64,000 bases of DNA from Alkalinema sp. RU_4_3. Its GTDB lineage: Bacteria > Cyanobacteriota > Cyanobacteriia > Leptolyngbyales > Leptolyngbyaceae. Position 1 is the first letter of the stretch. Each line of letters begins with the position of its first letter. This document shows, one piece after another, positions 2,385-24,069 of this stretch. The stretch lies in NCBI GenBank assembly GCA_012031975.1, contig JAAUSA010000001.1, positions 1 to 64,000 of the forward strand. Reading direction: 5' to 3'. Both the position numbers and the translations under genes were made by a program. The notes under the pieces were generated by a model that made no database searches, was not told where the DNA came from, and was given only the letters and a program-made list of their open reading frames with translations.

Positions 2385-3442
2385 GCAATCTTTTAATCAA
2401 TCTCGCCTTTGTCCCGACAAAACCCACTGGCCACGCCGTCTACGCCAACAATCTGTTTCCGGCCTTGCGCGATCGCTCTCCCATCCTCCTATCCCCCTAC
2501 GAAACACCGGGGTTTCGCACCCACCGAATTAGCGACAAGATGAACCCCGACCACGGCAGCAAGGGCCACCTGCGTCGCCTCCTGTGGAACGAATTTCGGT
2601 TACCGCAGTTGTGTAACCAACTCCAGGGAAATCTGTTGTTTTCACCCATTCCTGAGATGCCATTGTTTTCGCGCTGTCGATCGGTTGTGACGCTCCATGA
2701 CGTAATTCCGCTGAGGTTCAAACGGCGATCGCCCCTCACGCCCTATTTCCAGCATTATATTCCCCAGGTTCTGCGCCGCGCCCAGCATGTGATTTGCAAC
2801 TCAGAAGCCACCGCCCGCGACGCCGTGGATTACTACCAAATCCCTGCCTCAAAACTCACGGTCATCCCCATGGCCTACGACCGGGACCACTTCCGCGTCC
2901 TGAATCTTCCCAAGGGCAACTATTACCTCTTCCTCGGTCGCCCTGACGCCTATAAAAACATCGGTCGAACGATCGCCGCCTTCGCCCAGCTTAAAACCAC
3001 ACTCCAACTCTGGATCGCTGGTCCCTACGATGCCCGTTATAGCGAACATCTGGTTCAGCAGGCGACGGAACTGGGGGTAGGCGATCGCGTCAAATTCCTC
3101 AATTACGTCCCCTACAGCGAACTGCCGAAATTGATTAACAGTGCCGTTGCACTTGTGTTTCCCAGCCTTTGGGAAGGGTTTGGGTTCCCGGCCCTAGAAG
3201 CTATGGCCTGTGGTACGCCTGTGATTACCTCTGACCTGGCTTCCCTGCCTGAAGTTACGGGGGATGCTGCTATTCTTGTCGATCCCTATAGTGTGGAAGC
3301 GATCGCCCAAGCCATGGCTGTGATCGATCGCGATCCTTCGCTTTGTGCGGAACTCAGGCAGCGGGGATTGGTGCGATCGCAGCAGTTTAGTTGGGAGAAG
3401 ACGGGAGCGATGACGGTGGCGGTGCTCGATCGGTACTTGTAG
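2381..3442 (+). CDS. GT4-family glycosyltransferase
   Basis: Second GT-B, family 4 enzyme of the gmd unit; its ATG overlaps the previous stop as ATGA, indicating translational coupling. The N-terminal part carries [12 protein letters not shown] and the donor domain contains GRPDAYKNI and [18 protein letters not shown], the E-x7-E region. 353 residues, full length. Together with gmd and the preceding transferase it probably adds successive residues of one oligosaccharide. Substrate is not predictable. No clear hairpin terminator follows. Confidence 0.9.
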
Positions 3443-3865
3443 TTTGATGCTACAAGCAGGGGGAGAATCCTGCATCGGTATAGGTGTTATGTCAATGGTT
3501 CAGACATCCCCACTTCGAAAATCCGCTACCTTCGCGATCTCTCCGTTAAAAAATGGCGATCGGCTGACGCCTGAACGCTTATTAACAGCTTAGTTATATT
3601 ACCAGTCGCATCCATCAGAGATGTTTCCTGGGAGGATATTGCAGGGCTGACTGCTGCTGTTAAGTCGGTGAGCAGGGATTCAGCGCGAAGCAGGGACTCT
3701 ACAGCAAAAATTATGCCCACCGTTGGTTAAAAATAGGTAATTAAAAGGTTAAAATTACTTTCTGATAGAGCGATCGAATCCCAAGACTGTAAGCTACATA
3801 ACATCGATCTCGCACATATCATTGATAGAATTTCTCTGGCCAAATATTTACTGTAGTAAAACCAA
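3443..3865. other. Intergenic region, 423 bases, with candidate PHO box
   Basis: No convincing gene. A 34-codon frame at 3489-3593 and a 64-codon minus-strand frame near 3526-3720 have no recognisable similarity and look like chance or eroded coding DNA. The only clear structure is the three-copy 11-base-period repeat at 3724-3753, annotated separately, which lies upstream of the secreted-protein/phoX pair. Confidence 0.5.
3724..3753. promoter_or_regulatory. Candidate PHO box (PhoB/SphR site)
   Basis: Three 8-base units, TGGTTAAA, AGGTAATT and AGGTTAAA, are separated by 3-base AT spacers, giving an exact 11-base period. Read on the minus strand they are TTTAACCT-like, matching the cyanobacterial PHO box (tandem CTTAACCT units with 3-base spacers). 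The site lies about 110 bases upstream of a secreted-protein gene that precedes phoX, a classic phosphate-starvation target. Orientation relative to the downstream gene is inverted compared with most described boxes, which lowers confidence. Confidence 0.55.
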
Positions 3866-4371
3866 ATGCAACATATTTTAGGAGGTGTGTTGGCTGGTTG
3901 CGTCTGGGGAACAATTTTCTGGCCGTCCAAGCCAGCCTTAGGTCAGGTAGTTTCCCCTCAGGGCCTGGAATTTGCTTCCACGTTGACCAGCAATCAGTCG
4001 ATTCAATCATTCCCATCCGAACCGATTCAACGCTATATCGATCCGACTGGCATGTCTGCTGCGATGGTTTTGGTCCAGGCCAAAGTACTTGCCCAGGATG
4101 CTGTTGCTCAATTTTTTGCACAAAATCCGACGGCTCGTCAGGTTAAGGTTTACGTGTTTGCTGACTATGCGGGGCAATTGGTGCCTGTGCTTTCCGGTGC
4201 GATCGATCGAACAGTTGGCAAGCACAACCGAATATTGAGCGCTATAGTCGAACCTTTGCGGCAGGAGTTAACCTACTCAGCCTAAACCCCGTTCAACGAA
4301 CCGTTCAATCGACTAATGCATCTATGGGTCCCGTACACAATCGCGATGATATTGCCTTTCGCGATGATTAG
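3866..4371 (+). pseudogene. Secreted conserved hypothetical protein, frameshifted near the C-terminus
   Basis: Function unknown. An N-terminal hydrophobic stretch with a small-residue end (about residues 1-26) looks like a signal peptide, so the protein should be exported. The frame from 3866 runs to a stop at 4285. Around 4205-4220 the sequence becomes coherent in another frame, reading SWQAQPNIERYSRTF and ending at TAG 4369-4371; adding one base near 4212 joins the two parts into about 168 residues. The region VFADYAGQLVPVLSG just before the break resembles small secreted cyanobacterial proteins of unknown role. An AGGAGG at 3880-3885 could instead drive a TTG start at 3890. It lies directly upstream of phoX and behind the candidate PHO box, suggesting co-regulation. 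Confidence 0.6.
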
Positions 4372-4427
4372 TTGCCGGGTTAACTGGCAGTTTCCTTAAA
4401 TCCATCACAATAATTTAGACTAAAACT

Positions 4428-6779
4428 ATGTCACAGGTCACTCGTCGTCAGCTCCTAGCGTTTTTTACAGGTAGCGCTGCTGCTACTGTCCTTGGCCCTC
4501 AGGTCGTCGATCTATTGACGGGGACTAATTCCAGTGGTGCGATCGCCACGCCAGGCAAGCCCTTCAGCTTTACGCCTGTTCGTCTGCCCCATCCCCTGCC
4601 CATCTATCAGCAGACCAGCAGCTACCTCGCCACAAATATCAATCAAGGTTCCACCTTGCCACAGGTGCTGGCCTTTGAGCAGATGAATTTGAACAGCTAT
4701 ACACCCATTGACGATGTGGTGGTGCCGCCGGAGTATGAGCGCTATGTGATCGCGCGCTGGGGCGATCGCTTTTTCTCGAATTCCGAGGAATACGTGGGCT
4801 ACAACTGCGACTATACGGGGTTTGTCCCGCTGAACGGAAATGATAAGGATGGCTATCTCTGGATTAACCACGAATATGTGGGCTACCCGATTTCCCGCCT
4901 TGCTCCGGAGGTGCCCGCCGATATCGATGCTAGTTTCCCAGAGTCTGGCCCCCAGGTGATCCCCGACTTTCCAACGGTGATGGGTCGCGCCCTCTTAGGT
5001 GAATTTCTCTATAACATGGGCGGCTCGATTCTGCGCCTCAAGCAGCAAAACTCCGGGCGCTACCAGGTCCAAACCGACAGCCGTAACCGTCGCCTCCATG
5101 CCCTCTCAGGGTTGGGGATTAACGCCGATCGCCGCGATGAATACAAAACTGTCACCCAATGGGGCAGCAAGTCCTACCAAAAGGGCGATCAAAACTACCT
5201 GATTGGCACAGGGCCTGCCGCGACGGAGGTCTTTACCAAGAGCAGCGATGGTCTGGGCAATCGGATCATCGGCACAGGCTACAACTGTTCCGGCGGCACC
5301 ACGCCCTGGGGCACGATCCTATCGGCGGAGGAAAACTTCCAAGGCAGTTCGGTCTTCTTTGTCGGGGTCACAGAAGGTGTCAAGCCCGATGGCACCCAGA
5401 CAGGCTATACCAGCGGCACCACCGGGAGCGAATTCGGTTTAGTCGGTGAGAAATATGGCTGGATGGTGGAAGTCGATCCCGCTAATCCCAATGTGCGATC
5501 GCGCAAGCACACCGCCCTGGGCCGTTTCCGCCATGAGAATATTGCCTTCAGATCGGATACGGGTAAACCTCTCGTTGCCTATATGGGTGACGATCGCCGG
5601 GGTGGTCACACCTGGAAATATGTGAGTCGCGATCGCGTTAGCAATCCCAACAATAAGGACAACAGCAAGCTCTTTGAAACAGGAACGCTGTATGTTGCTA
5701 AATTCAACGAGAATGGAACCGGAGAATGGATTCCGCTGCAACTGGGCACCAAAACGAACCCGAACGTTCCCAGTCAAATCGCCTCCGTGGAGATTTCCCG
5801 TCTAGGTGTCGCTCAACGCAATGGCCGGGTGCCTCTACCGCGCCGCCAAGGCATCGCTGCCCAAACCTCATCCGGCGGTAGTTTTAACTGCGAGACGACG
5901 AATGAAACCACGGCATTGCCGGGCTACCGCAACAAGACACTCGCTGATTTCTATCAGTCCCAGGGGGCAATTCTTTGTGATGCTTTCCTCGCGGCTAATC
6001 TAGTCGGTGGTACGCCCTCGGCCCGTCCGGAGGATCTGGAGGTAAATCCGCGCACCAAGGAAGTGTTTATTGCCTATACAGATGGGGCTCCAGGGGGAGA
6101 TGGCTATCCTGATTCGCGCATTTTTGTGGTGGCCAAATACAGCGGCGGTAACAATGACACGCAGCAGTCCGGCGGCATCTATAAAATCATCGAAAATAGC
6201 GCCGATGGGACAGGTTTGACCTTCCGTTGGCAGCGCCTAGTTCAGGGGGGTGAAGCTGGCTCCATCAATGGAGCAGGGTTTGCTAGCGTGGACAACTTAG
6301 CCTTTGATGACAAGCTCAACCTGTGGGGTGTCACCGATATGTCTACCAGCACCCACAATGGCTTTGATATCGGTGCCAAAGGTGCTGAAAATCGGATTAG
6401 CCATGCTGACGCGGGCAACGTGGCCAGCTACACAGGCATTTTTGGCAACAACTGGCTGTTCTATATTCCCACCACGGGAACCCAGGCCGGACAGGTTGTG
6501 CCCTTTGCCTATGGTCCCCCTCGCTCGGAAATGACGGGTCCGACTTTTGTGGACAATACGCTGATCATTTCGGTTCAGCATCCCGGTGAGGACTGTCCCT
6601 ATAGCCCTCGGGTCACCCTGAAGCGGCAGATCGAGATGTTAGCCCTGAATGGCTCTCTTTTCTATCAAACGCGATCGGTAAGTCGAGGCAGCAACTGGCC
6701 CAGCAACATTGAAGGTCGCCCCGAGGGTCCCCCCGGCCTCACGGTGAGTCGGCATCCGCCCGAAAAACGGCCAAAATAA
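4428..6779 (+). CDS. phoX: PhoX-family alkaline phosphatase, Tat-exported
   Basis: Ca/Fe-dependent phosphomonoesterase that releases phosphate from organic esters outside the cytoplasmic membrane during phosphate starvation. The N-terminus has a twin-arginine signal (TRRQLLAFFTGSAAA, residues 5-19). Family landmarks follow: WINHEYVG, GYNCSGGTTPWGTILSAEENF with the metal-ligand Glu pair, DDRRGGHTWKYVS, RPEDLEVNPR and, near the end, ISVQHPGEDC. 783 residues, in the upper range for PhoX. ATG 4428 gives the complete Tat signal. It lies about 55 bases after a small secreted-protein gene and behind a candidate PHO box. Substrate specificity cannot be read directly. Confidence 0.93.
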   Translation: MSQVTRRQLLAFFTGSAAATVLGPQVVDLLTGTNSSGAIATPGKPFSFTPVRLPHPLPIYQQTSSYLATNINQGSTLPQVLAFEQMNLNSYTPIDDVVVPPEYERYVIARWGDRFFSNSEEYVGYNCDYTGFVPLNGNDKDGYLWINHEYVGYPISRLAPEVPADIDASFPESGPQVIPDFPTVMGRALLGEFLYNMGGSILRLKQQNSGRYQVQTDSRNRRLHALSGLGINADRRDEYKTVTQWGSKSYQKGDQNYLIGTGPAATEVFTKSSDGLGNRIIGTGYNCSGGTTPWGTILSAEENFQGSSVFFVGVTEGVKPDGTQTGYTSGTTGSEFGLVGEKYGWMVEVDPANPNVRSRKHTALGRFRHENIAFRSDTGKPLVAYMGDDRRGGHTWKYVSRDRVSNPNNKDNSKLFETGTLYVAKFNENGTGEWIPLQLGTKTNPNVPSQIASVEISRLGVAQRNGRVPLPRRQGIAAQTSSGGSFNCETTNETTALPGYRNKTLADFYQSQGAILCDAFLAANLVGGTPSARPEDLEVNPRTKEVFIAYTDGAPGGDGYPDSRIFVVAKYSGGNNDTQQSGGIYKIIENSADGTGLTFRWQRLVQGGEAGSINGAGFASVDNLAFDDKLNLWGVTDMSTSTHNGFDIGAKGAENRISHADAGNVASYTGIFGNNWLFYIPTTGTQAGQVVPFAYGPPRSEMTGPTFVDNTLIISVQHPGEDCPYSPRVTLKRQIEMLALNGSLFYQTRSVSRGSNWPSNIEGRPEGPPGLTVSRHPPEKRPK

Positions 6780-9798: not shown

Positions 9799-11388
9799 AT
9801 GCAAGTGAACCTCTCTCGCCCCAAAGCGAATCCCTCAGAACTCATTGAGCAGGTGCCCAATAGCACTCACTCAGTTGAGCTACCGGATGCTGTGAGTTTT
9901 TCCCAGCTTGAACCCGTGGCCCTTGAGCTATCCGATGATCCCGTCGTACTGCGTCGCCAAGTCGAGCGCCAGGCCCGCTACCAAGCCCTGCTGCGCCGCC
10001 TCACCATGGCCATTCAAAATGCCAAAGAACTCACCGAAGTCGTAGAAATTGCCGCCGAAGGAATCGCCCAGGTTCTGGAGGCCGATCGCGCCATGATCCT
10101 GCGCATGAAATATTGGGATCCCCGCCATAGCGTCCGTTCCCAGGAGCGGATCCCCAAGGCACGTGTGATTATTGACGCCCAGTGGGTCAGGGGCAGTGAC
10201 AGCAATGTTATAGACCTGACCGAAGCGCGCGATCGCAACCAACATCCCCCCGCCAGCCAGTCCTTCTGGGTCGCCGACTGTGGCCTTTGCCAGTACGCCA
10301 TGACGGGCTCCTCCCAGCCCCTGATTTTCCACAATGCCCAGCAGTTCACCGATACCCTGACAAACCCCGCCACAGAACTGCTGTCCGAGCAGGAAATGCC
10401 CGCGCTGCTGATGGTGCCCCTGGAGAGCAAGAATAAGGTCCTCGGCTTCCTGACCGTGCAGCATCGATCGAGCCATATGTGGCGCATCGAAGAAGTGGAA
10501 CTGGCGGAACTGATGGCCGCCCAGCTTAGCTCCGCTATTATTCAAACCGAAACCCTCCGCCAGGTCGAATCCCTGGTGGAAGAGCGCACCGCCCAACTCC
10601 AGCAGAGTCTAGAACTCCAGGCCAAGCTCTACGAAATCACCCGCAAGCAGATTGAAAAGCTACGGGAAATGAACCAGCGGATGGACGAGTTCCTAAGTAC
10701 CTTGAGTCACGAGCTTCGCACGCCCTTGACCAGCATGATGATGGCCATCCGCATGCTGCGCCAAGCCACCCTCACCCCCGACAAGCAAGAGCGCTACCTG
10801 AACATCCTCGAAGAGCAATGCGCCCAGGAAACCAGCCTGGTCAACGACCTCCTCGCCCTCCAGGAGTTGGAAACCAAGCAGGTGGCCATGCAGGTTCAGC
10901 AGGTGAATCTCCAGCAGATGGTGGAGGGCCTGTCGATTTCCTTTGACCAGCGCTGGGGCATGAAGGGCTTGACCTTGAAAGTGGATGCGCCCCCAGAGGC
11001 GATCGTCCTGTCTACCGACCAGAGCAGCGTCCAGCGGATCCTCCTAGAACTGATGACCAACGCGGGCAAATATTCCGACCCCAGCAACGCCATCGAACTC
11101 AAGCTCAAGCCGATCGCCAATCGATCGGTCGAAGTCACCATCACCAATATTGGTCCAGGGATTTCCGCCGAGGAGCTGCCACAGATTTTCGAGAAGTTCC
11201 GCCGTGCCCAGGGCATGACCCAGCAGGCGGTCCCCGGCACAGGCCTAGGGTTGGCCCTGGTGAAGAGTCTGGTTCAGCACCTCAATGGCACGATCGAAGC
11301 CATCAGTGAACCCATAGACGACAGTGCGATCTACCTCACCACCTTCATCGTCACCCTGCCGATCAACCTCGAAACCGTAAAATCGTAA
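9799..11388 (+). CDS. GAF-domain sensor histidine kinase
   Basis: Cytosolic sensor kinase: a stimulus at the N-terminal GAF domain would control autophosphorylation and transfer to an unidentified response regulator. There is no transmembrane segment. GAF occupies roughly residues 70-255 (ending FLTVQHRSSHMWRIEEVEL), then a coiled coil rich in Gln/Glu, then HisKA with LSHELRTPLTS (phospho-acceptor His near residue 304) and HATPase with LMTNAGKYS (N box), IGPGISAEELPQIF and GTGLGLALV. 529 residues. No response regulator gene adjoins it, so it is an orphan kinase. A Cys-containing DCGLCQYAM stretch in the GAF is notable but does not match a known bilin or haem motif that I can assign. Confidence 0.9.
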   Translation: MQVNLSRPKANPSELIEQVPNSTHSVELPDAVSFSQLEPVALELSDDPVVLRRQVERQARYQALLRRLTMAIQNAKELTEVVEIAAEGIAQVLEADRAMILRMKYWDPRHSVRSQERIPKARVIIDAQWVRGSDSNVIDLTEARDRNQHPPASQSFWVADCGLCQYAMTGSSQPLIFHNAQQFTDTLTNPATELLSEQEMPALLMVPLESKNKVLGFLTVQHRSSHMWRIEEVELAELMAAQLSSAIIQTETLRQVESLVEERTAQLQQSLELQAKLYEITRKQIEKLREMNQRMDEFLSTLSHELRTPLTSMMMAIRMLRQATLTPDKQERYLNILEEQCAQETSLVNDLLALQELETKQVAMQVQQVNLQQMVEGLSISFDQRWGMKGLTLKVDAPPEAIVLSTDQSSVQRILLELMTNAGKYSDPSNAIELKLKPIANRSVEVTITNIGPGISAEELPQIFEKFRRAQGMTQQAVPGTGLGLALVKSLVQHLNGTIEAISEPIDDSAIYLTTFIVTLPINLETVKS

Positions 11389-16332: not shown

Positions 16333-17403
16333 ATGATTGCCGCCGCTTCAAAATCCACGCTCCAGACTTCGTTCCCGCTCGTTGGAGCCTCCTTGGCCGA
16401 ACTGACCGAATGGATTCAGACCCAGGGCCAGCCCGCCTACCGTGGCAAACAGCTCCACCAATGGCTGTATGAGCGGGGGGCGCGATCGCTGATGGACATC
16501 TCAGTGTTTCCCAAAGCCTGGCGGGAGACAATGGCGGACTATCCTCTGGGGCGATCGACCATCCACTACCGAGCGGAGTCTCGCGACGGCACCATCAAGT
16601 TTTTGCTCAAACTGGTGGATGGCAGCATCATCGAGACCGTAGGAATTCCTTCGGAAAAACGCCTGACGGTTTGCGTCTCTTCCCAGGTGGGCTGTCCCAT
16701 GAATTGTGACTTCTGCGCCACGGGCAAGGGTGGGTTTACGCGGAATCTCGATCGCCACGAAATCGTAGACCAGGTTTTGACCGTCCAAGAGGAGTTTCAA
16801 CAGCGGGTCTCAAACGTCGTCTTCATGGGTATGGGGGAGCCTTTGCTGAACGTCGATAGCGTCCTTGCCGCCCTGCAATGCATGAACCAGGACATCGGCA
16901 TTGGCATGCGGATGATGACGGTTTCCACCGTGGGGATTCCCGGCAAGATTCGCAAGCTGGCGGAGCTTCAGCTCCAGGCCACCTTGGCTGTGAGTATCCA
17001 TGCCTCCAACCAGCGGGTGCGGGAGCAGTTGATTCCCAGTGCGCGGCAATACCCGATCGAAACCCTGATCCAGGAATGCCGAGACTACGTGAAGATCACC
17101 GGGCGCAGGGTCAGCTTCGAGTACATCATCCTCTCCGGCACCAACGATCTGCCCGAACATGCCAGGGAGCTGGCGAGTCACCTGCGGGGCTTCCAGTGCC
17201 ATGTCAATCTGATTCCCTACAATCCGATTACTGAGGTGGACTACAACCGACCCACGGATCCACAGCTAGCGGAGTTCAAACATATCCTGGAAGATCGCAA
17301 TATTGCGGTGAGTATTAGGCGATCGCGCGGTTTAGACGCCGATGCGGCCTGCGGTCAATTGCGGGCCTCGCGCTCTGCCGCTGAGGCTTTGACGGAGGTT
17401 TAG
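16333..17403 (+). CDS. rlmN: 23S rRNA (adenine-2503-C2)-methyltransferase
   Basis: Radical-SAM enzyme that methylates C2 of A2503 in 23S rRNA and A37 of some tRNAs. The cluster motif CPMNCDFC (C-x3-C-x2-C) follows GCPMN; the N-terminal accessory domain has [26 protein letters not shown] is the SAM-binding GEP region. The catalytic C-terminal cysteine is in [10 protein letters not shown]. 356 residues, full length. The stop overlaps the convergent xseB stop by 3 bases. Confidence 0.95.
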
Positions 17404-21612: not shown

Positions 21613-22599
21613 TCCTAAAACTTCCTCGTTACAAACATCTGCCTAGTGATTGGGGCCGCCCCCGATTCAAATACACCCGCCCCTAATTTTCTCCAACAGA
21701 ATTTTAAAATCCATTGAGGACGATCATGATGTAGGATGCCCAAGAAGTCCCATTGACATCTCCGAACATTTACTCAGCGGGGATTTCAACCATTCACGAC
21801 GTAACATCTCAGACACAAGACAGCCTAGAAAATGAACGATACCCAACTTGGGCCGTCCAGCTGTAGATTACTTGGATCGATGCAACCTTAGGGCACTACA
21901 CCGAGTAACCTAGTCAAATCAGGGAATTCACACAGTTAAACTTCAGTCAGCAACATTCGTCTGTCAAAAATGACGCTTGTAGCAGCCCATTCTATCGTAG
22001 AAGAGTGCCCGGACCTTTGGCAGTCCCTAGGGGCCGCCCTTTATTTACTCTTTAAACCTCTCTTAAAAACATATTCTTGTTGTTAGATCGCGGTGAAGAG
22101 TTGATGAAGTCAGGGCTCCAAAGTTGTGGGTCGCGGAAAATGCAGGGTAGATTCTGTCTGACAGCTCGCTTTGGGTGACAGACATTTTGAGAACTTTGGT
22201 TTATTCCAGGACCGCATAGTTTCTATGTAAGTTGTATTGGATTGCCGAATTTTGCTCTAGTTTATCCTGCAACTTGCGGAATATTGTTCCCTTGGTCTAG
22301 GCCCTGGGTAGAATAGTCGCGTTGAGATTTGTACGGAGATGTTGGGGCAAAGATGTTACATTTCATCTACGGGGTTCGTCGCCATCTAACTGACTTTTAT
22401 GTTTCTAGTCCTCAAGTTTCCACGAGTTCATGGGTCTTCGATGTCCCATTTGGGAACTCTAGCGATGAGTAGAGCATTCTTATTCTGTATATGTTGATTT
22501 CCGAGGGTTAAGCTTCCGTCAGTGTTAGTGAGCGGTTCGATCTCCTAGAGGTATGTTGCCATTGCCTGTCAGACCCTCGATACTCTTTTTCCTAGGCCT
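21613..22599. other. Long divergent intergenic region, 987 bases
   Basis: Separates the MsbA-like exporter from the Wza-like gene. No frame here resembles a protein. An imperfect inverted pair TCTGTC/GACAGA occurs near 22155-22190. The length is exceptional for this otherwise compact window and may hold regulatory sites or a small RNA, but I cannot identify one. Confidence 0.4.
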
Positions 22600-24069
22600 A
22601 TGAAACCCCGTACCCCCCTATTGTCTTTTTCCCTATTGTCCTTGCTCGTGGCCCCCTGGCATGTCTCCGTGGCAACTGCTGCCATGGGCGATCGCACCGC
22701 CCTTCCCCCAGCCCGGCCCTCTGCCCCGGCCTACCGCCGGGCGGACTTGGATGCGGCCTACACCTTGGGACCGGGCGATCGCGTCAAGATCGAGGTCTTT
22801 AAGGTACCGCAGTACAGTCTGGACACCCAGGTGCTCGTGGATGGCACCATCAGTCTGCTGCAGACGGGAAAAATTAAGGTGCAGGGGTTGACCCTCGATC
22901 AGGCTAGTGAAGCGGCCTCCGCCCAATATGCCAAGCTGCTCAAGTATCCCGTTGTGACGGTGACTTTGATTACGCCGAGACCCATTCGAGTGGGGGTATC
23001 GGGTGAGGTGACCCGCCAGGGGTCCTATGACCTTTCGGTGACGGGCGAAAACAATACCAACCCCGTTCAGTTGCCGACCGTAACGCGGGCCTTGCGATCG
23101 GCGGGCGGGACCACCCAGGCCGCTGACCTGCGGCAGGTGCAGATTCTGCGCCCCCGCTACGGCCAGCCCGATGAGAAGATCTCGGTGAACCTGCTGGAGT
23201 TTGTCCGGGGGACCCAGCCGAAGGAGGATATTTTCCTGCGCGATGGTGACTCGATCTATATTCCGACCTCGACAAACCTGGACTTAAATGAGTCCTACGA
23301 GATCGCCACCACGAGTTTTTCCGCCGATCGGATCCAGCCCTTGAATGTGACGGTGGTGGGCGAAGTGTACCGGCCTGGGACCCACACCGTGGAAAGTAAC
23401 GTGCGCACCGAATTGGCTGGGGTGCCTGGGGCGCCGCGTGATGCCTTCAACCAGTCGCGCATCTATCCCACCATCACCCGAGCGCTGCAAACCGCCGGGG
23501 GAATTAAGCCCCTCGCCGATGTGCGGCAGATTCAGCTGCGGCGGACCACCCGCAACGGGGCAGAACAGAACTTCACCATTGACCTGTGGCAGTTGCTCAA
23601 GAATGGCGATCAAAAGCAGGATTTGATCTTGCAAGATCGCGATACGATCGTCGTACCCGAGGCCCAGTCACTCCCTAACAAGGAAGCTGCCACCCTGGCC
23701 GCCGCAAGTTTTTCCCCGGACAAAATTCGGGTGAGCGTGGTCGGGGAAGTCGAGCGTCCGGGTCTGGTGGATGTGCCGCCCAATACGCCGTTCCACAAGG
23801 CCATTTTGGCAGCGGGTGGGTTTAACAACCGGGCGGATCGCAAGAAAGTCGAGTTCATCCGTCTCAACCCCGATAGCACCGTGGCCCGGCGGGAAATTGC
23901 CGTCAACTTCGCCCAAAACCTCGACGAAACGACCAATCCGCCCCTGCGGAACGAGGATGTGATTGTGGTCAAGCGATCGGCCTATTCCACGGTCAAGGAT
24001 GAAGCAGGGAATGTGTTTAATCCCGTGGGCTCGATCGTCAACGTTTTGCGAGCTATTTTCCGCTTTTAG
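22600..24069 (+). CDS. Polysaccharide export protein, Wza-like with SLBB domains
   Basis: Secreted/outer-membrane component of capsule or exopolysaccharide export. Signal peptide at residues 1-28 (hydrophobic SFSLLSLLVAPWHV). Then a poly-export domain starting YTLGPGDRVKIEVFKVPQYSL, and repeated SLBB units recognised by VTVVGEVYRPG, VSVVGEVERPG and the recurring TITRALQTAGGIKPLADVR phrase. No lipobox cysteine is seen after the signal, typical of cyanobacterial Wza relatives. 489 residues. About 70 bases upstream of the Wzc-like gene; together they form the export/chain-length pair. Confidence 0.9.
   Translation: MKPRTPLLSFSLLSLLVAPWHVSVATAAMGDRTALPPARPSAPAYRRADLDAAYTLGPGDRVKIEVFKVPQYSLDTQVLVDGTISLLQTGKIKVQGLTLDQASEAASAQYAKLLKYPVVTVTLITPRPIRVGVSGEVTRQGSYDLSVTGENNTNPVQLPTVTRALRSAGGTTQAADLRQVQILRPRYGQPDEKISVNLLEFVRGTQPKEDIFLRDGDSIYIPTSTNLDLNESYEIATTSFSADRIQPLNVTVVGEVYRPGTHTVESNVRTELAGVPGAPRDAFNQSRIYPTITRALQTAGGIKPLADVRQIQLRRTTRNGAEQNFTIDLWQLLKNGDQKQDLILQDRDTIVVPEAQSLPNKEAATLAAASFSPDKIRVSVVGEVERPGLVDVPPNTPFHKAILAAGGFNNRADRKKVEFIRLNPDSTVARREIAVNFAQNLDETTNPPLRNEDVIVVKRSAYSTVKDEAGNVFNPVGSIVNVLRAIFRF

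Follow-up and report, generated by a model that had tools for sequence, protein, structure and literature searches.

The PHO box in the window (the whole 64,000-nt stretch of DNA analysed here) is best explained as a true SphR box left within a conserved Pho module that is disrupted here, its control region having been rearranged so that its promoter points leftward; we put the probability of this reading at about one half. By descent, the box would belong to a module made up of the box itself, a small secreted protein with a ...FRDD tail, and the alkaline phosphatase PhoX. Rearrangement of the control region would have left a sole remaining box, reversed, with its -10 element on the minus strand and a scrap of another gene as its left flank. 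Phosphorylated SphR at this box should recruit polymerase, with transcription starting near 3703 and running leftward; the product would be a short, apparently non-coding or antisense transcript, not directly an mRNA of the small gene and phoX. The small gene, its frame broken, would be evolving fast. The orientation of the box, the placement of its -10, the lack of a second box and the break in the first gene all argue for a disrupted copy (coordinates in Table 1).

Table 1. Features of the region around the PHO box, with the basis of each assignment
Feature	Position	Strand	Basis
Three-unit PHO box, reads leftward	3724..3753	-	Matrix score, exact 11-bp period
PHO-box octamers 1/2/3	3746-3753, 3735-3742, 3724-3731	-	3-nt linkers
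-10-like hexamer CATAAT, 8 nt past third octamer	3710..3715	-	-10 matrix
Scrap of unrelated gene, under predicted leftward transcript	3614..3704	-	86% identity to C340
Small secreted-protein gene, first part, 139-aa open frame	3866..4285	+	Homology to ~4213
Small gene, second part, other frame, ends ...DDIAFRDD + stop	4195..4371	+	tblastn
phoX, alkaline phosphatase, 783 aa	4428..6779	+	Open over full length

The box and its predicted promoter

The first-pass annotation had described three PHO-box-like octamers at an exact 11-bp period in inverse orientation, and this is what is found: on the minus strand the box reads TTTAACCT-ttt-AATTACCT-att-TTTAACCA, while the plus strand over 3725-3757 is GGTTAAAAATA / GGTAATTAAAA / GGTTAAAATTA. 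An independent repeat search paired 3725-3735 with 3747-3757, at a spacing of 22. The arrangement of three 8-bp direct repeats with 3-bp linkers is that of the consensus, YTTAAYYW three times over with 3-nt spacers (Suzuki et al., 2004, as quoted in PMC9846622). Of the three octamers the middle one is weakest, with a core of ATTA and not TTAA. In EMSA experiments on Synechocystis, a TTAA core in all three repeats was required for binding (PMC11126600); the window box has it in two of the three. Degenerate octamers are present in published sites too (Table 1 of Su et al., 2007; PMC1906773).

An octamer matrix was built from the same published table, using 27 distinct sites of its 30, since three PCC 7942 rows repeat those of PCC 6301 (PMC1906773). 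The window box scores 23.4, the highest value on either strand of the 64-kb window and within the 8.2-27.5 span of the sites behind the matrix; this score was reached in none of 60 Markov windows and in none of 5000 simulations of the local intergenic stretch (3443-3865), and is above background. The runner-up in the window, at 22040-22069 on the plus strand (18.7), has a weak -10 at offset 8 and lies about 530 bp before an ORF (22600-24069) that looks polysaccharide-export-like by eye. Pattern searches of the 5.25-Mb genome, allowing up to 3 mismatches and run with a control pattern, gave 4 rows at 3 places with a strict pattern (control, 0), with 2 mismatches in the window box and 1 in the box on contig C168. 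A looser pattern gave 13 rows (control, 3), among which the window box alone had 2 mismatches and the remainder 3; by matrix it ranked fifth of these 13, below sites on C317 (26.0), C168 (25.9), C253 (25.3), and C227 (24.5). In sequence terms, the 30-bp element is a real PHO box and part of a conserved Pho module.

SphS/SphR-type control is probably at work in this organism. The best PhoB match of the genome, on contig C1, scores 251 bits against a curated cut-off of 296, and adjoins a PnpS/PhoR-like kinase that is also under its cut-off; among 14 control genomes, 12 match the PhoB model, Synechococcus elongatus included, and 2 pass the cut-off. Forward boxes precede 2 of 10 pstS-like genes (C227, 24.5; C156, 19.5), and together with the PhoB/PhoR-like pair they make SphR-type control probable. 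The C168 box (10402-10431; L166, L177) lies between two minus-strand ORFs and points away from the nearest ORF start, making it a second reversed box in the genome. On C253 (28878-28906; L183) a forward box with TATTAT 8 nt downstream lies ahead of a 356-aa ORF, membrane acyltransferase-like by eye and a possible unexpected Pho target, while the C317 site (16622-16651; L167, L185) is about 30 bp before a gene that looks AMP-ligase-like by eye and is itself apparently split over two frames.

The direction of transcription can be predicted from the position of the -10. The 40 nt past each box were scanned with a -10 matrix written by hand. Among 90 forward boxes at named phoX loci, 46 had their best hexamer 8 nt downstream (the next commonest offset had 9 boxes), and among the 39 left after removal of near-duplicates, 17 did (next, 4). 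The minus-strand CATAAT holds this position at the window box; at 5.0 bits, its level is met at 0.6% of intergenic positions and 0.2% of the window. No -10 was found at the matching offset on the plus strand, and when box and -10 scores are combined the window site ranks first (28.5 vs. 19.1 for the next). Offset 8 is no more than a tendency: among PhoX- and PhoX-like-linked loci, taken as a second set, it is the commonest but accounts for just 4 of 16 non-redundant cases (next, 3), and among five strong sites elsewhere in the same genome it carries the best hexamer at C253 alone, and not at C227, C156, C317, or C168. For the reverse boxes of relatives, offset 7 is commonest (5 of 17). The position of CATAAT on the minus strand predicts a promoter directed leftward, away from phoX.

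To the left of the box, the scrap corresponds to C340:893-980, which lies within a 142-aa ORF that is intact there and adjoins an HNH-like ORF; in the window the scrap is fused to other sequence. No box of score at least 17 is found at the intact C340 copy. The intact pair, HNH-like ORF and upstream 142-aa ORF, spans L164:234-1074, and with the scrap beside the window box it suggests that the gene pair exists in several copies and may be mobile. A leftward transcript would meet no evident gene before entering, antisense, a glycosyltransferase gene ending at 3442. An Rfam search of 3300-4500 gave two chance-level matches (E 0.36 and 0.52), far under the gathering score, so no known RNA lies beneath the leftward promoter. 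Inverted repeats of at least 10 nt, which might have mediated an inversion, do not flank the box, and in 42 genomes of the window's own family the intergenic DNA has matches outside its own genome only of less than 50 bp (best E 0.0037).

A conserved module and its apparently broken copy

The identification of phoX stands: its product matches PF05787 (E 2.6e-123, 413 bits, profile positions 12-515 of 515), with an N-terminus that we take to be twin-arginine-like. When the 1 kb ahead of phoX was surveyed at 80 named loci, counting as boxes all scores of at least 15, there was a forward box at 68, a reverse box alone at 6, and neither at 6; five of these loci have less than 650 bp of upstream sequence, where boxes or small genes may have been cut off. 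A further 29 phoX relatives from the window's own family had a forward box in 14 cases, a reverse box alone in none, and neither in 15. Strong reverse boxes were inspected at eight loci for divergent genes: at five (L096, L097, L098, L102, L103) a divergent gene for a secreted-protein-like product is nearby, at L083 the nearest divergent ORF is more than 1 kb off, and at L104 and L110, where the reverse box is alone, no divergent ORF of at least 90 aa was seen. At L096, L097, L098, and L102 an ORF that is presumably PhoD-like follows. The nearest phoX relatives (L115, 75%; L034, 74%) have neither small gene nor box, so the reversal is not datable from these. For Nodularia, the authors of a published account report that they found no conserved box before P-induced genes (PMC9846622).

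In 22 of the 80 named loci, a search with a profile of distant homologues places a small-gene homologue immediately ahead of phoX and on the same strand. The same 22 were found by phmmer with the window read-through, and, together with the window, by a cleaned profile from which a wrong-strand ORF (L009) had been removed. At each of the 22, one forward box (score at least 15) precedes the small gene and another stands between the small gene and phoX. Among these 23 loci the window is the sole one with a reversed box alone and with no box between the genes; the best forward score upstream of its phoX is 5.5. Members of the small family linked to PhoX or PhoX-like genes show the same orientation (29 members; forward box before the small gene at 22, reverse box alone at none). 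The first-pass annotation had proposed a two-gene Pho unit under the control of the window box. Its arrangement of box, small gene, and phoX is indeed conserved, but the proposed control finds no support as worded: boxes face the genes in 22 of 22 relatives and here the box faces away, the sole well-placed -10 is on the minus strand, and the box before phoX is absent. Neither the shared orientation nor the coding-strand -10 expected of a box that activates adjacent genes is found.

That the product encoded ahead of phoX is uncharacterised and probably secreted holds good, but the ORF at 3866-4285 is not the whole of it, the conserved C-terminal part lying in another frame and running to 4371. 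By tblastn the small protein is matched in two pieces (3866-4213 and 4195-4368), with the stop of the second frame at 4369-4371 and the switch of frame within a short GATC-rich repeat near 4195-4213. The core and the ...FRDD end are kept, the tail being in the other frame; RDD, the last three residues, is invariant in 21 aligned relatives, mostly as NDPxFRDD. Relatives have intact copies. Read through the break, the protein matches phoX-linked relatives by phmmer at E values down to 8.5e-13, and in 42 genomes of the window's own family it has matches in 25 (its own included), mostly weak, with a best other match of 1.4e-8 (limit 0.01); the N-terminal part alone found no homologue beyond its own genome in these 42. 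In a 111-row tree, the end branch of the window protein, with its two frames joined by hand, is 1.93 long against a median of 0.27, and is exceeded by one wrong-strand row. A branch of this length fits a relaxation of constraint. The frame break may also be an assembly error (the assembly is in 362 contigs).

Other readings of the reversed box

It is possible, though we think it rather doubtful, that the box works in its reversed orientation, with bound SphR activating a rightward promoter and inducing the small gene and phoX. From the box it is 112 bp to the small ORF and 674 bp to phoX, each a part of the conserved Pho module, and phoX has no other box in the window; that so strong a box should lie less than 150 bp from the phoX unit by coincidence is unlikely, which favours some function for phoX and speaks against the explanation we prefer. 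So do the reverse-only boxes of L104 and L110, two of the six such cases among the 80 named loci, which have no nearby divergent ORF of at least 90 aa, and the reversed box on C168, which suggests that reversed boxes are perhaps tolerated. Against a rightward reading, however, there is no -10 at the usual plus-strand place, and forward boxes stand at 68 of the 80 named phoX loci, at all of the module loci, and at 14 of the 29 relatives in the window's own family, where reverse-only boxes do not occur. PhoB-type effector domains bind their repeats head to tail (PMC4415409), by which the polymerase-facing side should point left. That the box drives the small gene and phoX here is doubtful. The leftward -10 and the scrap on the left flank would also suit a box that once served, or was shared by, a divergent gene since lost, as in loci of Nostoc and Spirirestis with a reverse box between phoX and a divergent secreted-protein-like gene; the reverse boxes of L096, L097, L098, L102, and L103 adjoin such genes. 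A reverse box alone occurs at none of the 22 module loci, however, and the gene from which the scrap comes is the neighbour of an HNH gene and, where intact, has no box scoring 17 or more; we consider such a loss unlikely, and rearrangement the more plausible cause.

SphR might instead act here as a repressor. In Synechocystis, activating boxes overlap the -35 region or sit further upstream, while at urtA, a described repressed case, boxes near the -10 repress (PMC13226834). A consensus scan puts a rightward promoter (TTAAAA-17-TAAAAT, 3727-3755) exactly under the window box, but finds 2 promoters where shuffled sequences give 1.6, and a phosphatase unit shut down by phosphate starvation makes little sense; the idea has very little probability. 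Nor do we give much credence to chance, that is, to a triplet repeat, AT-rich and PHO-box-like, to which no protein binds: its middle octamer is weak, and it points away from the genes to the right, with none evident to the left, but its location before phoX and its score, unequalled in all of the Markov windows and local simulations, tell strongly against this.

A phosphatase-linked protein family, compared with known systems

Beyond the box itself, the most interesting result is the family to which the small, probably secreted protein belongs, many of whose members are linked to phosphatases. A profile search found the family in 204 of 388 genomes of the class, representing 85 of 160 genera. 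Pfam and NCBIfam gave no convincing match for the family and none for its first member; PF16525 (Haemophore MHB) matched 12 of 21 members weakly (best E 9.3e-4), with no match for the window ORF at E 0.001. The AlphaFold model of the relative at L059, from a 21-row alignment, has a mean pLDDT of 74.6 and consists of a signal-like helix, a strand-helix-two-strand core, and a very-low-confidence tail (under 50). Foldseek found no match to it at E 0.001 or better; the best VIA-align match, to a staphylococcal sex-pheromone precursor domain, has a Z of 6.2, a level that the notes of the tool describe as common. No description of the family was found in a literature search with poor coverage of subscription journals, so this is weak evidence of absence.

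Genomic neighbourhoods were compared over 112 stretches, comprising the 32 matches listed for the read-through outside the window and 80 from the class-wide search (20 of the 25 best-match loci not already included, L242 and L244-L247 being left out, and the next 60 listed rows, skipping loci already included). After removal of ORFs cut by the end of a stretch and of repeats of the same last 60 residues, 105 of the stretches held 109 distinct small ORFs, or 108 with the cleaned profile, which loses the L009 copy in L188. Of the 109, 41 are followed within 1.5 kb by a phosphatase gene on the same strand (40 of them within 0.8 kb; 41 of 108 with the cleaned profile); within 3 kb there are also two upstream on the same strand and one on the opposite strand. 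The identity of the phosphatase varies with the C-terminal tail, in classes defined by regular expressions after the sequences had been viewed. Members with a [FY]RDD tail (13) are linked to PhoX in 7 cases and to no phosphatase in 6; those with an EPNFY-like tail (13) to a PhoA-type enzyme in 12, all 12 with an upstream CDF gene, and to none in 1. All 13 with an LxxLD tail have a PhoX-like neighbour, and none of 9 with a TPGxIGK tail has any. The other 60 include 9 linked to PhoX-like genes, 7 of which end in ..VD, ..ID or ..WD (L201 and L263 do not), and 51 with none. On the tree the neighbour labels are strongly clustered (11 changes, against a shuffled mean of 46.1), so that labels and tails belong to orthologous groups and do not count as independent events. 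The PhoX-like group, presumably what was once called DUF839 in Pfam, was found using as query the ORF of L186, which is about 30% identical to the window PhoX and has no NCBIfam match. The genome of the window has a second member of the family, on C312, in a run of CDF transporter, small gene, second small ORF, and PhoA-type phosphatase; the CDF gene is above its cut-off, the phosphatase (E 4.8e-30) below. The 12 PhoA/CDF members have no box of at least 15 directly before the small gene, the region before the CDF gene having been scanned for some only. Four other members (L249, L250, L253, L323) have forward boxes (18-22) and acidic ..LIDALD or ..LVDAVD tails, and the queries used detected no phosphatase nearby; there may be further Pho genes among their neighbours.

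A family present in about half of the sampled genomes, lacking a convincing model and lying repeatedly upstream of phosphatases, suggests an unrecognised part of phosphorus acquisition from organic matter in cyanobacteria. Tentatively, its members could be dedicated partners of secreted alkaline phosphatases, with separate groups going with PhoX, PhoA-type and PhoX-like enzymes and the group-specific tail (..FRDD, ..EPNFY, ..LxxLD) marking the enzyme served; possible roles include export, loading with metal, anchoring at the surface, and inhibition. If so, the window would amount to a natural experiment, with the partner lost and the PHO promoter flipped while PhoX remains intact. PHO boxes are already known, but a strong one facing away makes the polarity rule for SphR activation directly testable.

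Like the cyanobacterial PHO boxes bound by SphR, the window box has three octamers with 3-nt linkers and TTAACC cores, upstream of a phosphatase unit, and a score inside the published range (Su et al., 2007; PMC1906773); unlike them, it is opposite in orientation to the adjacent genes, with its -10 on the other strand and a degenerate middle octamer. The module loci, in Microcoleus, Oscillatoriales, Lyngbya, Symploca, and Chroococcus, share with the window their gene order and strand, a homologous small gene with an RDD tail, and a homologous phoX, but have the small gene in one frame and two forward boxes, where the window has a broken gene and one reversed box. For Nodularia, there is a published table in which an alkaline phosphatase and a CDF transporter appear together as a single operon, strongly P-induced (PMC9846622). 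The PhoX-like and PhoA-type/CDF operons resemble the window in having a small secreted protein encoded directly upstream of the phosphatase, with a forward box frequent ahead of the small gene in the PhoX-like operons, and differ from it in their C-terminal tails (..LxxLD or ..EPNFY) and in the type of phosphatase.
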